Shown here piece after piece: positions 14,440 through 49,100 of a stretch of 64,000 bases of DNA (position 1 is its first letter; each line of letters opens with the position of its first letter). The position numbers were made by a program, and so were the translations under genes. The stretch covers positions 868,001 through 932,000 of the forward strand of contig JAADJZ010000017.1 of the NCBI GenBank assembly GCA_011032825.1. The letters are read 5' to 3'. This DNA comes from Massariosphaeria phaeospora (taxonomy: Eukaryota > Ascomycota > Dothideomycetes > Pleosporales). The notes under the pieces are model-generated. The model was given only the letters and a program-made list of their open reading frames with translations, searched no databases and was not told the origin of the DNA.

Positions 14440-15452
14440 ATGGACGATGACGAGCCACCGTAAGACTTTCTTCTCTTCTTATGTATCGCATCTGAAACCA
14501 TATCAGCCAGCTCTCCGCCGACGCTCTATCCGCCCTGCAAGCCTTTTACGGCGAGCGCGACACACGGGCAAAGCATTTCGAAGACCTCAAAGCCCAAGCC
14601 GAAGACGAGTTTGATGGTGGCAAGCTGAGCATGGATGCTTTTACAGAGGACTGGAACGCCAGCCAATTCTGGGTAAACATCAACATATGGAAAGAGATGG
14701 GGAAAGTAGCCTGATTTTGTATACATTGTAGTATGACGACGAGACTGCGACTATTCTGGCTAGACAGCTTTTGGAGGGTGCGACAGATGAGACGAGAATT
14801 GCGGTGGTGTCGGCGCCGAGTGCTTTTGTGAAGGTCAAGGGGTTGCTGGTGAGTGGAGAGTTCGTCATCAGTGCCGTTCGGAGACTGTCTCCAGGGCTTA
14901 GGCCAGCAGTCTAATACACGGATCTTATAGTACGTGAATCTACGTAGCTAACAACCAACAGTCATCAGGGGAGTATGCGTGCAAGCCTCAGATAACCCTG
15001 CTCGAGTTCGACGAACGTTTCGCCGTCTTCAAGGAATTCGTCCACTACGATTTCCAGCATCCAATAAGGTTGCCTATTGAGCTAAAAGGCTCCTTTGACC
15101 GCGTCATATGCGACCCCCCCTTTCTCAGCCAAGACTGCCAGACCAAAGGTGAGTACATATCACAACACAACACAACTCCCCGCATGAAACTATCAAGCAC
15201 TGACAAACCACAGCCGCCCTAACCGTCCGCTGGCTCGCAAAGTCCTGGACCCCCCCAGACCCGTCAAACAAAGCCACATCTTTCCAATTCATATCCTGCA
15301 CAGGAGAGCGCATGCAAGAGCTAATCGAGAAGCTGTATGCGAAAGTCGGAGCGCGAACGACTACGTTTGAGCCGAAGCATGCCAAAGGTTTAAGCAATGA
15401 GTTCCGGTGCTATGCGAACTTTGAGTGTGGTGCTTGGGCCTGGGCGAAGTGA
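14440..15452 (+). CDS. EFM5/EEF1AKMT1-type protein-lysine methyltransferase
   Basis: SAM-dependent methyltransferase of the EFM5 (N6AMT2-like) family, which methylates a lysine of translation elongation factor eEF1A. Five exons (14440-14459, 14507-14672, 14732-14848, 14962-15148, 15214-15452) total 242 aa, matching the family. Hallmarks are LSALQAFYGERD, the FTEDWNASQFWYDDETATIL block, FDERFAVF and the catalytic D-P-P-F motif in DRVICDPPFLS (about residues 152-155). The C-terminus contains CYANFECGAWAW, also typical. Exon 1 is only 20 nt. The acceptor of exon 4 (TCATCAGGG) has a nearby alternative AG, so the SSG residues there could be off by two. Confidence 0.9.
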
Positions 15453-15725: not shown

Positions 15726-15843
15726 TGTGCCGAATATACGCCGAACTTCCCCGACCTGACCAAAAATAGACCTAATGCGACAGGTTTGCGCCAAAATTAA
15801 TTATTCGCTCACCCAACGTCCAAATAATATCAAAATGAGTGCA
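15726..15843 (+). repeat. TG...CA-bounded repeat, copy 1
   Basis: 118-bp copy of a repeat that recurs 29 bp further on. It begins TGTGCCGAATAT and ends AATGAGTGCA. Both copies are preceded by a GAAAAG-GGGG flank. I do not recognise the family. The TG...CA ends and position next to a tRNA gene recall LTR fragments, but only sequence comparison elsewhere in the genome would show that. Confidence 0.75.
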
Positions 15844-15872: not shown

Positions 15873-16002
15873 TGTGCCGAATATATGCCGAATATATGCC
15901 GGAATTCCCCGACCGGACCAAAACTAGACCTGATGCGACCAGGTTTGCGCCAAAATTGATTATTCAATCACCCAACGTCCAAATAATATCAAAATAAGTG
16001 CA
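15873..16002 (+). repeat. TG...CA-bounded repeat, copy 2
   Basis: 130-bp second copy, clearly homologous to the 15726-15843 copy with scattered substitutions. The 12-bp length difference is explained by an internal duplication of GCCGAATATA plus two single-base gaps. It ends within 10 bp of the 3' end of the tRNA-Ser gene. Confidence 0.75.
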
Positions 16003-16006
16003 AAAA
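16002..16006 (-). terminator. Pol III T-run terminator of tRNA-Ser
   Basis: On the minus strand a TTTTT run follows the tRNA discriminator base by 5 nt, the expected RNA polymerase III termination signal. It argues that the tRNA gene is, or recently was, transcribable. Confidence 0.7.
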
Positions 16007-16011
16007 GAAGA

Positions 16012-16172
16012 CGTCACCTGCAGGATTCGAACTGGCGTTGAGTCAGTAATGGAGCTCTACATTAGCTAGGAAGATTTGAAAACTCACCCTGCGCGCCCGA
16101 AGGCATTAGATAACTCAAACCAAGCTCACTTGGGTTTCAAGTCTAACTCGTTAACCACTCCGACAAAGTGAC
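16012..16172 (-). tRNA. tRNA-Ser(UGA) with canonical intron plus a T-arm insertion
   Basis: Minus-strand tRNA. Acceptor stem GTCACTT pairs with AGGTGAC (one G-U), discriminator G. The D-arm has stem TCG/CGA and an AGTGGTTAA loop containing the A box. Anticodon stem TTAGA/TCTAA carries loop CTTGAAA with anticodon TGA at 16139-16137. The long variable arm GCC-TTCG-GGC is serine-type. A canonical 24-nt intron (16135-16112) lies between positions 37 and 38 and can fold on itself. The T-arm is interrupted by 56 nt (16087-16032) that start GTGAGT, contain ACTGAC and end CAG. Removing exactly this segment restores stem GCAGG/CCTGC around loop TTCGAAT. The three exons then make an 81-nt molecule. Alternatively the gene is a pseudogene killed by the insertion. 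Confidence 0.88.
16032..16087 (-). other. Spliceosomal-like 56-nt intron inside tRNA T-arm
   Basis: The insertion has a consensus fungal 5' splice site (GTGAGT), a perfect ACTGAC branch-point motif about 10 nt before the 3' end, and a CAG acceptor. Its length equals that of protein-gene introns in this window. The upstream exon ends GCAGG and the downstream exon begins TTCGAATCC. The B box changes only from GGTTCGAATCC to AGTTCGAATCC, so Pol III promoter function may survive. Splicing by the spliceosome is inferred, not shown. Confidence 0.7.
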
Positions 16173-17803
16173 TTTGATGAAGATTTGGCAATTTGAAAGA
16201 ATATAACGCATAAAGAATTGATGGAGATACTTTGTGCGCGGTTTGGGGGGGAATATGCGGGGCAGAGCGGGATTACACGTCACTCCAAGCGAGAATCGGA
16301 CACTACACTAGCGGATCCAACATCTCCTGCGGCAGATATGTAATTGGTTGGCTGGTTGTTCTGCAGCGGCTGGGGATCCGTCCGGGCATCTCCTGGCCAA
16401 GTGACTAAGCCGGCTGACTAGCGCGGCTAGTCAGGCTTGGCGGTCCCTGATGTTCGGACGAAGCGCAAGAACATCAATACCTACACACAACACAATAGCT
16501 TTTTCATCTGGTCTTACTGCGCGCTGGTATCTCTACATCAATACGGAGTAGGCCTATGTTTGCATTGGCTTTTGTGCGGCCAGCCGCCCTGTTTCTCCCG
16601 CACCAACCGCACTTACATTTCGCACTCCTCCCAACTCGATGGCATGCAGCATCGCGACGACTGCATAGGCAGGAAAATTCACAAAAAACATCCACAGATT
16701 TGGCTCGATCGCCTGTGAACGCGATATCCGGATCAGAAACTCGCTGCTCGTGCAAAATCGCTCGTGTCTCCTCTAGGACGACGCGCGCACTCGTCTCTCG
16801 AATGCATATCGACATCGCCGTGCTCTCGCGGATCCTCTCGTGGATCCACTCGCAGCTTATCCCTTAGGTACTGTAGCAGCTATGGGGCTGCTATGGGTTG
16901 GCACACGAGAAAGACGAAAGAGGTTGTATCCTACACGTCGAGTGTCGCTGAAGCAGGTAATCTCGTCATAGGGTATTGTCACTTAGATGAAAAATTGTTT
17001 AGTGCGATGCCTTTATCCAGTTTTCAGATCAAGTCAACCGAACCAAGTATCTCGGGAAATTCCTCAATTTCACGGACGCGAAGCAACTCCGGTGACCCTC
17101 ATTCAACATTCATAGTTAACTTATAGTCACTCTCTATGACGAAGCTGCTATAGTACCGGAGTATTGTTGGTTCTACCAGCTTCAATCTCATGTAAAATCA
17201 GTTTGTCGCTTGCTATCAAGCATGTAGCAAGCTCTCTGCCCTATATAGGCAGAAAACATCTCATCCGTAGAACTAGTATCAATCTACTAATCTCATAGTT
17301 CAACAAGTATAACCGACGACGCTGCGAGCGTCTGCTTGGCGCTGTCACAGACAAACTGCAAGAGGGTAGTAAATTGGGAAAGGCCATGAACGGCAATGCT
17401 ACTACCTAGCACTCTCTGGTACTCAACCCTGCGGCACGACTCCATCCTATATTCAGTGAGGGTTTCGATTTAGCTATCGTGAGGGTGGTCCGCCCTCGTC
17501 GTTCCTTCTGAAACCGAACACACTTAAACATCCGCCTCCAGCGTTCCTTCCCATTATGTAATGCGCCGAGTAGCGGAGAAAATTTCTGCGTTAGAGGCGA
17601 AACCCTCTTCATCTTATCCACCGCAAGGTGAAGTGAGTTTTTTCTTTCTTTTTAGAGCCAAATATCCTGCTTAGGGCGAGTGCTACTGTTTGTAAGGCTA
17701 ATATGTATGTAGGTTTCTGCTCGAACAAGTCTTCGCGGGAAACCGCCACCCCGTCGCCTCGCTCCCGTTCCTCGGGGAGGAGGGAATTCCTCCTCCGCCT
17801 CCC
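16173..17803. other. Gene-poor region
   Basis: About 1.6 kb without a recognisable gene. Short frames around 16437-17126 have no family features. Confidence 0.5.
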
Positions 17804-46140: not shown

Positions 46141-49100
46141 ATGTCGCTCCTGCCCGCCGAAATCCACACCGCCTTGGACGCGCTGCTGAAGGGCCTGCAG
46201 TCGCCGGACAATGTCGAGCGCACCGCCGCCGAGGACCAACTCAACCGCGAGTGGGTCGGCGAGCGGCCGGACGTGTTCCTGATGGGCCTGTCGGAGCAGA
46301 TCGAGCTGGCGCAGGAAACCTCGGTGAGTGAGACTCGCTGCCTGTGCAATCACGCGTAGACTGACCAGGCGGCCAGACTCGGACCTTTGCTGCCGTCCTC
46401 TTCAGGCGGCAGGCCTCCAAGCCGCGGAAGACGAGCCGGGACACGACGGGCGAGCTGTTCCTGACCCTCCCGGAAGAGCAGCGCGACGTCATCCGCGCGA
46501 AGCTGCTGCACTGCCTGGGCACCGAGACCGATCCGTCAGTGCGAAGCAAGATCGCAGACACGGTTGCCGATCTGGGGCGCATGCACACAGACGAAGGTGA
46601 CTACTCGAACCCCGATTCGTAAACACAAACATGCTGATATGCGATGTCTACAGGCGTGCTATGGCCAGAACTTCTCCAGTCCTTGTTCCAAGCCAGTCAG
46701 TCGAATGACTCGGCGCAGCGGATGATCGCCTTCAGGATCTTCTCCACGACGCCTGGCCTGATAGAAAAACAACACGAGGAGGTCGTTATTGGCGCCTTCA
46801 AGGGCGGATTCGGCGACAGTGAAACTTCGGTGGGCCGTCTGCTGGACCACGCAGCGCCGAATCTTGTGCTGACACTGTCTAGGTCCGCATCGCTGCAGTA
46901 GAGGCCTTCGCGGCCTTTTTTCGGTCCATCAACAAGAAGGCCCAGCCCAAATACTACGCCCTCATTCCGGAAATCCTCAACATCCTCCCGCCCATAAAAG
47001 AGTCCCAAGATGCAGAGCTACTCACCAAAGCCCTCATCTCGCTGATTGACCTAGCCGAAGTGGCCCCTAAGATGTTCAAACCTCTGTTCAACAGCCTGGT
47101 GCAGTTCAGCGTATCCGTCATCCAGGACAAGGAGCTCGGTGACACGGCTCGCCAGAACGCACTCGAACTAATGGCCACGTTTGCAGATTGCGCGGCGCAG
47201 ATGTGCAAGAAAGACGCGACATATACCAACGACATGGTCACACAGTGCCTCTCTCTAATGACGGATGTCGGAATCGAGGACGATGACGCTGAGGAATGGA
47301 ACGAGAACGAAGATGTGCGTCACTGAACGTTGTAATGGGTTTGACCCTGCTGACACCCTGTAGCTCGATGCCGACGAGAGTGACTCGAACCATGTTGCTG
47401 GAGAGCAGTGTATGGACCGCCTGGCCAACAAACTCGGTGGCCAGTCGATATTGCCTCCCACCTTCAACTGGCTGCCAAGGATGATGACCTCTTCCGCGTG
47501 GCGAGACAGGCATGCTGCACTCATGGCCATTTCAGCCATCTCAGAGGGCTGTCGCGAGCTAATGGTTGGCGAGCTAGACAAAGTGCTCGACCTGGTCATC
47601 CCCGCCCTCCGAGACCCCCACCCTCGAGTTCGGTGGGCCGGATGCAATGCTATAGGTCAAATGAGCACCGACTTTGCTGGCACCATGCAGGAGAAATATC
47701 ACCAAGTGGTCGTCCCTAACATCATTCCGGTATTGGAGTCGTCGGAGCCCCGCGTACAGGCGCATGCCGCAGCAGCGCTTGTCAACTTCTGCGAAGAGGC
47801 CGAGAAACACATCCTCGAACCCTACCTGGACTCTTTACTAAACCACCTCCTCATGCTTCTGCAGAGCCCCAAGCGGTTTGTGCAGGAACAAGCTCTCTCC
47901 ACGATTGCTACCGTGGCCGATTCCGCTGAGGCTGCCTTCTCGACATACTACGGTACCCTGATGCCGCTCCTGTTCAATGTCCTCAACGAAGAACAGTCCA
48001 AGGAGTACCGCCTCTTAAGAGCAAAAGCAATGGAATGCGCCACCCTCATCGCGCTTGCAGTAGGCAAGGAGCGCATGGGTCCGGATGCGCTATCGTTGGT
48101 GCAACTACTTGGCCGCATCCAGAACACCGTATCCGAACCCGATGATCCGCAGGCTTCGTACTTGCTCCACTGCTGGGGCCGAATGTGCCGTGTTCTTGGG
48201 TCGGAGTTCATACCGTTCCTTGCTGGTGTCATTCCGCCCTTGACTGAGCTTGCTGGAGCCAAGGCCGATATCCAATTACTCGACGATGACGACCAGGTCG
48301 CACAGATGCAGGAGGAAGAAGGGTGGGAGCTTGTACCTCTCAAGGGAAAAGTGATTGGTATCAAGACCAGCACATTGGACGACAAGCACATGGCGATCGA
48401 GTTGATTGTCATTTACGCCCAGGTTCTAGAGGGAGCTTTCGAGCCTTACGTTAACGACATCATGGACAAGATTGCGCTCCCAGGTCTAGCCTTCTTCTTC
48501 CACGATCCAGTACGAGTGGCTTCAGCTAAATGCGTACCTCAGCTACTCAACGCCTACAAAAAGGCACACGGACCTGGTTCCATCCAGCTTGGCCAACTTT
48601 GGGGACGGACCGTTGAGCGCGTACTTGAGGTGCTTAGCACAGAACCCGCCATTGATACCCTCGCCGAGATGTACCAGTGTTTCTACGAGTGTGTGGAAAT
48701 CATCGGTAAGAATTGTCTGACCGCGGCACACATGGCCACCTTCATTACTTCTGCCGAAAGCGTCCTGAAAGACTATCAAGAGCGTGTTAAAGAGCGCCTG
48801 GAGGAGCAGGATGAAACCGAGGACGGCGAAGAATTGGCCGAAGAAACTCTCTTTGCCATTGAAGACGACCAGAACCTCCTCTCGGATATGAACAAGGCCT
48901 TTCACACCATCTTCAAGAACGAGGGCCCCGGCTTTCTCCCGCATTGGGAGCTGCTCATGCAGTACTACAAGATGGCGGCCGTGAACCGCGATCCCACGCA
49001 GCGACAATGGGCCATCTGCATCTTCGACGACGTGCTCGAGTTCAGCGGCGCCCAGTCGCAGACCTACCAGGAGCACATCATGCAGCCCCTCATCGACGGC

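Follow-up and report, generated by a model that had tools for sequence, protein, structure and literature searches.

Does a tRNA gene that carries, besides its ordinary intron, a second insert with the marks of an mRNA intron still make a tRNA, and if so, what removes the insert? In nuclei, the splicing of tRNA and that of mRNA are regarded as separate systems. The question is raised by a tRNA-Ser(UGA) gene in a stretch of 64,000 nucleotides (the window) from one contig of Massariosphaeria phaeospora. The reading favoured here, and considered very likely on the evidence of the sequence, is that this is a working RNA polymerase III (Pol III) gene with two kinds of intron, of which the extra one would be removed by the spliceosome, and that the genome holds at least eleven such genes. 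It is based on the anatomy of these genes, the restoration of the tRNA by exact excision, the match to mRNA introns, helices that are intact and covary, and conserved exons.

The features of the gene are collected in Table 1. The original prediction had described a 24-nt intron at 37/38, a 56-nt insert in the T-arm bearing GTGAGT, ACTGAC and CAG, recovery of the T-arm on exact removal of the GT-AG segment, intact acceptor, D-, anticodon and variable arms, a nearly intact B box and a T5 terminator, and all of these were found again, the exons forming 23 of 23 helix pairs. The gene is read from the minus strand, a point that the prediction left unsaid; its acceptor stem has 7 bp and its variable arm is short. 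Removal of both introns gives a predicted product of 81 nt, in which exact excision of the insert joins exon 2 to exon 3 as GCAGG followed by TTCGAATCC; in the gene it is the terminal CCAG of the insert that directly precedes TTCGAATCCTGC. The 37/38 intron has the central helix (4/4) and the outer helix (3/3) of the geometry for the tRNA splicing endonuclease. The features of a functional tRNA gene, namely the cloverleaf, the A and B boxes, the upstream signals and a T-run terminator, are all present.

Table 1. Features of the tRNA-Ser(UGA) locus and of a neighbouring mRNA intron, in window positions
Feature	Position	Strand	Remarks
tRNA-Ser(UGA) gene, 161 nt, two introns	16012..16172	-	Rfam RF00005, 28.7 bits, full model 1-71
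Exon 1, nt 1-37: acceptor 5' strand, D-arm with A box, anticodon arm to nt 37; anticodon TGA	16136..16172	-	
Ordinary tRNA intron at 37/38, 24 nt	16112..16135	-	ARAGORN i(38,24)
Exon 2: nt 38, anticodon 3' strand, variable arm, T-stem 5' strand GCAGG	16088..16111	-	
Putative mRNA-type intron, 56 nt, T-arm position 53/54, GTGAGT...CCAG	16032..16087	-	Exact removal gives T-arm GCAGG-TTCGAAT-CCTGC
5' splice site GTGAGT	16082..16087	-	Hexamer common to window mRNA introns, e.g. 15149-15213
Branch motif CTGAC (within TACTGAC)	16042..16046	-	Branch A at 16043, 11 nt before last intron base
3' splice site CAG	16032..16034	-	Reads AGTTCGAATCC with exon 3; B box 10/11 letters
Exon 3: T-loop, T-stem 3' strand, acceptor 3' strand, discriminator G	16012..16031	-	
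TATA-like upstream element TTATATT	16200..16206	-	TATAT/ATATA/TATAA upstream of most tRNA genes checked
Start-like motif CCAAATCTTCATCAAA, abutting the gene	16173..16188	-	Similar words by eye upstream of many tRNA genes
Pol III terminator T5	16002..16006	-	From sequence
mRNA intron of neighbouring gene, 65 nt, GTGAGT...AGCACTGACAAACCACAG (also as CACTGACAAACCACAG)	15149..15213	+	Joins open frames of 70 and 78 codons

ARAGORN reported no tRNA in the unaltered 64-kb window. Deletion of the 56 nt made it report Ser(tga), with an intron of 24 nt placed at 37/38. The Rfam score of the uncut gene falls 0.3 bits short of the gathering score of 29. Just downstream of the gene lie two copies of a sequence of about 97 bases, 92% alike (15747-15843 and 15905-16002); no other copies were reported from the genome by a DNA search in which very common words were skipped. 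The possibility that the insert itself is a repeated or mobile element gained no support from a DNA search of the same kind with 15900-16300, which matched only itself and one local repeat. A search with 16080-16180, which comprises the leader, exon 1, the 37/38 intron, exon 2 and the start of the insert, matched only itself.

The genome of M. phaeospora (Pleosporales, a dothideomycete; 42.1 Mb in 51 contigs) was surveyed for tRNA genes with Rfam and with B-box and A-box patterns. Candidates were fetched rather than every match: for the five A-box patterns 43/56, 2/11, 10/23, 12/32 and none of 11 matches were left unfetched, and ten places from the B-box search were set aside because on inspection they did not look like tRNA ends. 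The survey yielded 68 tRNA genes (47 from Rfam, the window gene included, 13 from the B-box search, and 6 and 2 from later rounds of fetching), a tally that omits seven tRNA-like remnants (L035, two in L055, L059, L064, L079 and L095). Named by ARAGORN, or by hand where ARAGORN misnamed them, the 68 genes cover every expected anticodon family except elongator Met, for which none was found by the Rfam, B-box or A-box searches of the genome, the box matches having been fetched in part. L059 was considered as a candidate for this gene and rejected, because it gave no tRNA fold by hand and model R1 had no match to it at E 1; eight weak A-box matches likewise proved on reading not to be tRNAs. Elongator tRNA-Met may be interrupted more heavily than the other tRNA genes.

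Some other loci were seen along the way. L055 (G000:C11:305099-305356) holds two diverged tRNA-like units, with a distance of 186 bases from start to start; ARAGORN gives them the anticodons TTA and TCA, and they score 43.3 and 36.5 bits. L068 (G000:C34:2135450-2135730) resembles a Pol III locus, with a TATA element, the B-box-like GGTTCGAACCC and a T run; it matched no Rfam family at the gathering score and ARAGORN found no tRNA in it, and it is possibly an unannotated Pol III RNA. A repeat that contains YATCTCAATTGGCAGAGCGC, a word like the A box, together with units of the ATAAGAGGTGTA type was encountered at six places (L082-L087).

Eleven of the 68 tRNA genes were found to carry an insert of 47-56 nt outside 37/38. 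In cloverleaf numbering assigned by hand, the insert lies at 53/54 in the window gene and in Leu-CAA (L091), at 52/53 in Glu-CUC (L071), at 58/59 in Ala-AGC (L075) and Gly-CCC (L093), at 45/46 in Ile-AAU (L029) and Pro-UGG (L076), and at 24/25 in Arg-UCU (L072) and three Gly-GCC genes (L056, L061 and L062). The loci are spread over nine contigs (C1, C6, C7, C9, C10, C11, C20, C48 and C51). Nine of the genes have a separate intron at 37/38. The two without one, L029 and L075, have paralogues (L021 and L051) that do have a 37/38 intron, as if one kind of intron had replaced the other.

Exact excision of the insert gave the expected isotype and anticodon in all eleven cases (ARAGORN), whereas for the uncut genes the same program found nothing in five and a wrong anticodon in six. 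As the boundaries of each insert are set by the tRNA fold, to within one to four equivalent registers, any splice signals at those boundaries are independent evidence. Ten of the inserts, that of the window gene among them, have GT..AG ends, and CTRAY is present in every one of the eleven, its branch A lying 10-12 nt ahead of the final base. The fungal branch consensus is RCTRAY, 6-36 nt from the acceptor (PMC5832005); this longer form is present in 10/11, L029 having T before its CTAAC. The exception to GT..AG is L093 (G000:C11:124970-125250), the Gly-CCC gene, whose T-loop insert starts GAACGT and ends in AG and which is either a decayed or a non-canonical case. The 5' site fits GTRNGT in seven inserts, including that of the window gene; the remaining four are L093 and the three Gly-GCC genes.

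Could such a signature arise by chance, or from faulty assembly? For a single case the odds of a chance match are about 1 in 10,000 per register: among 1,000,000 segments drawn at random from the fetched genomic DNA and matched in length to the inserts, 104 had GT..AG ends with CTRAY 8-16 nt before the end, and in 14 of those 104 GTRNGT was present as well. With ten of eleven inserts showing these features, a chance match was ruled out. The binomial probability is about 1.7e-33, allowing four registers and assuming independence of the genes, an assumption that does not hold for the three Gly-GCC genes; counted over 8 amino-acid families it is 9e-28. Nor was any support found for an artefact, against which stands the recurrence of one signature at eleven loci on nine contigs, and the probability left to either explanation is negligible. 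The ordinary introns of the genome seldom have such ends: GT..AG was seen in 1 of 41 ARAGORN rows of 37/38 introns, that intron being 17 nt long, although the rows include misparses (L076 and some Leu genes) and the true number of introns is smaller.

The inserts were compared with mRNA introns from the window itself. Candidates joining open frames numbered 22 (5 with a control motif), and after removal of three doubtful ones (5601, 5605 and 26587) 19 were kept, one of them lying in the neighbouring gene of Table 1, which is presumably methyltransferase-like, the name coming from a translated motif. As GTRNGT and CTRAY were required in choosing this set, the informative features are length and branch distance: the branch A lies 9-15 nt from the end in 16/19 and the length is 46-57 nt in 13/19. 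Two of the introns (46324-46376 and 47315-47363) agree with the organism's annotated importin. A score built from the 19 introns ranged from 10.4 to 15.7 among them, and seven of the inserts fell within this range. Those below it were the Gly-GCC inserts, at 7.0, 1.7 and 7.0 (5' sites GTCCGT, GTCCGA and GTTCGT respectively), and that of L093, at 9.3.

An alternative agent for the removal of the extra introns is the tRNA splicing endonuclease, acting on bulge-helix-bulge (BHB) motifs, two bulges of 3 nt around a helix of 4 bp with flanking helices, as in Cyanidioschyzon merolae, in which a tRNA intron is described at the identical place, 53/54 (PMC9602550). The fold of the inserts allows this to some extent. 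A central helix of 3/4 can be reached in 9/11 inserts at the best allowed register, and 15% (2,970/20,000) of random positions reach at least 3; the insert of L075 has a geometry of 3/4, 3/3 and 2/3. Among sixteen genuine 37/38 introns used as controls, the central helix was 4/4 in five. A strict BHB was formed by none of the 11 inserts at any equivalent register, yet just 1/16 of the genuine 37/38 introns formed one, so this test discriminates weakly. The outer helix was 3/3 in 15/16 controls and, at the GT-AG register, in 1/11 inserts. For the eukaryotic enzyme as it is known, the cut is described as being made at 37/38 (PMC3978253). Above all, cutting by the endonuclease would leave the GT..AG ends, the CTRAY at 10-12 nt and the YAG jointly unexplained, and because these splice and branch signals go unaccounted for this explanation is disfavoured and seems very improbable. 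The spliceosome is the preferred agent.

The original prediction had left room for a dead gene struck by an intron, and the window gene might indeed be a pseudogene, an intron or introner having been copied into a spare Ser-UGA gene whose product is never made. It had named, as what would speak against an active gene, another intact Ser-UGA gene supplying the tRNA together with a lack of spliced product in RNA data, and the former half of this was found: a second Ser-UGA gene (L011, contig C18) is intronless and has a different body, which means that the window gene may be dispensable. The insert, furthermore, breaks the T-arm and leaves the uncut gene below the Rfam cut-off, and L093, with GA for GT, has a possible look of decay. 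Against this, all 23 pairs of the window gene are intact, and its TATA-like element, start-like motif, terminator and splice signals are all in place. The pairs also covary. In an exon alignment of the window gene with four Ser genes (L011, L015, L022 and L043; L016 and L023 were omitted as repeats), both sides had changed in 15/23 pairs, compared with a mean of 7.1 in shuffled alignments, and the covariation score was 0.80 against 0.26 when shuffled, sliding controls all giving 0.13 or less. A decaying gene would have broken pairs, and on that ground decay is disfavoured, although five sequences are few. Together with the state of the Gly-GCC genes, all three of which have the intron and identical exons, this makes a pseudogene an unlikely explanation, and a working window gene remains the preferred one.

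The Gly-GCC genes also bear on what happened after the introns were gained. All three Gly-GCC genes found carry the insert, and the exact Gly-GCC A-box word occurs three times, only in these genes. Their exons are identical at 70/70 bases and their introns differ. Between L056 and L061 the introns show 11 substitutions in 48 aligned positions as well as gaps, and the contrast between exon and intron is significant (Fisher p 2.4e-5). Both of these introns keep GTCCG, ACTAACAA and TTCTAG; between the signals no significant likeness of the L061 intron to that of L056 was found. A common ancestor of the Gly-GCC introns is suggested by the place of insertion, the unusual 5' site and the 3' tail, which they share. 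If so, selection kept acting on these genes while they carried the intron. Paralogues of which one has the insert and the other does not also exist: the exons are identical in Glu-CUC (L071 and L060) and in Ile-AAU (L029 and L021), and the 37/38 introns of the Glu-CUC pair differ at 3/21 positions (Fisher 0.01).

The Gly-GCC tRNA reads the GGC and GGU codons, and to our knowledge it has no substitute. As the pattern matches were fetched in part, the survey may have overlooked a Gly-GCC gene without the intron; if it did not, removal of the Gly-GCC intron would be required for life.

Signals for transcription by Pol III were examined in the same set of genes. One of the words TATAT, ATATA and TATAA is present within 70 nt upstream of 62 of 67 tRNA genes (all of the 68 except L039), compared with a mean of 27 and a maximum of 40 in shuffled sequence. 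CATMA or CATWA occurs upstream of 40 of the 67, a raw count with no control set. In each of the eleven insert-bearing genes, 9-11 of 11 letters are matched by the best B box that the uncut sequence offers. In the five T-arm cases it spans an intron boundary and the intron ends thus supply some of its letters. Pol III termination usually needs T5 or longer. Within the introns the longest T run stays below that length, reaching 4 in two genes (the window gene and L093) and 2 or 3 in the other nine.

The following route to the tRNA can be proposed. Pol III would transcribe the window gene, using the upstream TATA element together with the A and B boxes that lie inside it. The 24-nt intron at 37/38 would be removed by the tRNA splicing endonuclease and ligase, and the 56-nt intron at 53/54 by the spliceosome, closing the T-arm; recognition of the latter would involve U1 at GTGAGT, U2 at TACTGAC and the CAG acceptor. 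Transcription itself, the spliceosome as the agent, the order of the steps and the use of the product are what we infer from this anatomy. The original claim, that an mRNA-type intron in a tRNA gene calls for two splicing machineries, is supported at the level of sequence, and ten more genes have the same anatomy. The spliceosomal step would be needed by each of the three genes found for Gly-GCC, which is an essential tRNA. The making of these tRNAs, then, probably depends on the mRNA-splicing machinery.

Several known systems resemble this one in part. A 2017 study names U3 and U6 as the sole small structured RNAs in which interruption by an intron was known to be frequent (PMC5832005). The introns of fungal U6 snRNA, a Pol III product, and of U3 snoRNA are like the present ones in being of mRNA type, with GT-AG ends and RCTRAY, in a small structured RNA. 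The present hosts differ in being tRNA genes, several in one genome, interrupted at five sites of the cloverleaf and in nine of eleven cases beside a 37/38 intron. In M. phaeospora the one U6 locus looked at (L063) is uninterrupted, the whole 105-position model being matched in 97 nt. tRNA introns outside 37/38, in the D- and T-arms, one of them at 53/54 as in the window gene, and several to a gene are described for C. merolae and the Guillardia theta nucleomorph (PMC9602550, PMC3978253). Those introns are described there as BHB/endonuclease introns, although many of the nucleomorph ones have no defined BHB, whereas mRNA splice and branch signals are present here.

Spliceosomal introns in the nuclear rRNA of ascomycetes are a further case of mRNA-type introns in a structural RNA (PMC11889510, citing Cubero 2000 and Bhattacharya 2000), and reverse splicing is mentioned there as a possible route of their spread. 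rRNA is made by Pol I, whereas the tRNA hosts belong to Pol III. The introner-like elements of Dothideomycetes are from the same class of fungi and represent a recent multiplication of spliceosomal introns (PMC4457414); the word 'tRNA' does not occur in the text of that paper. Such elements have many near-identical copies in one genome, and copies of this kind were not seen among the eleven introns: 3 of the 55 pairs were above z 3, and one of the three pairs is that of L056 with its paralogue L062. In the open PMC literature, covered by titles and the openings of abstracts and mostly lacking subscription papers and bioRxiv, spliceosomal introns in tRNA genes were not found to be reported. tRNAscan-SE 2.0 seeks non-canonical introns with archaeal BHB models, and the stem 'spliceosom' is absent from the text of the paper that describes it (PMC8450103). 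Seven of the eleven insert-bearing genes miss the Rfam gathering score, which could explain why such genes have gone unnoticed.

Standard searches miss most genes of this kind, so that in related fungi the trait may be common and have been overlooked. If the introns are spliced as proposed, fungal tRNA annotation would be incomplete for a definable reason, and the eleven cases would be instances of the spliceosome acting on uncapped Pol III tRNA precursors. They would also document, as a record left by nature, how introns are gained by RNAs whose structure is known and highly constrained, and they prompt one to ask whether a spliceosomal intron can reside in any structured Pol III gene. It seems likely that spliceosomal introns have invaded the nuclear tRNA genes of this filamentous ascomycete repeatedly at a few preferred sites (24/25, 45/46, 52-54 and 58/59), that the ends of the T-arm introns re-form most of the B box, and that the spliceosome is needed on Pol III transcripts for essential tRNAs such as Gly-GCC, so that the capacity for translation is tied to mRNA splicing. 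If splicing takes place, an essential tRNA of this fungus would have been made dependent on the spliceosome.
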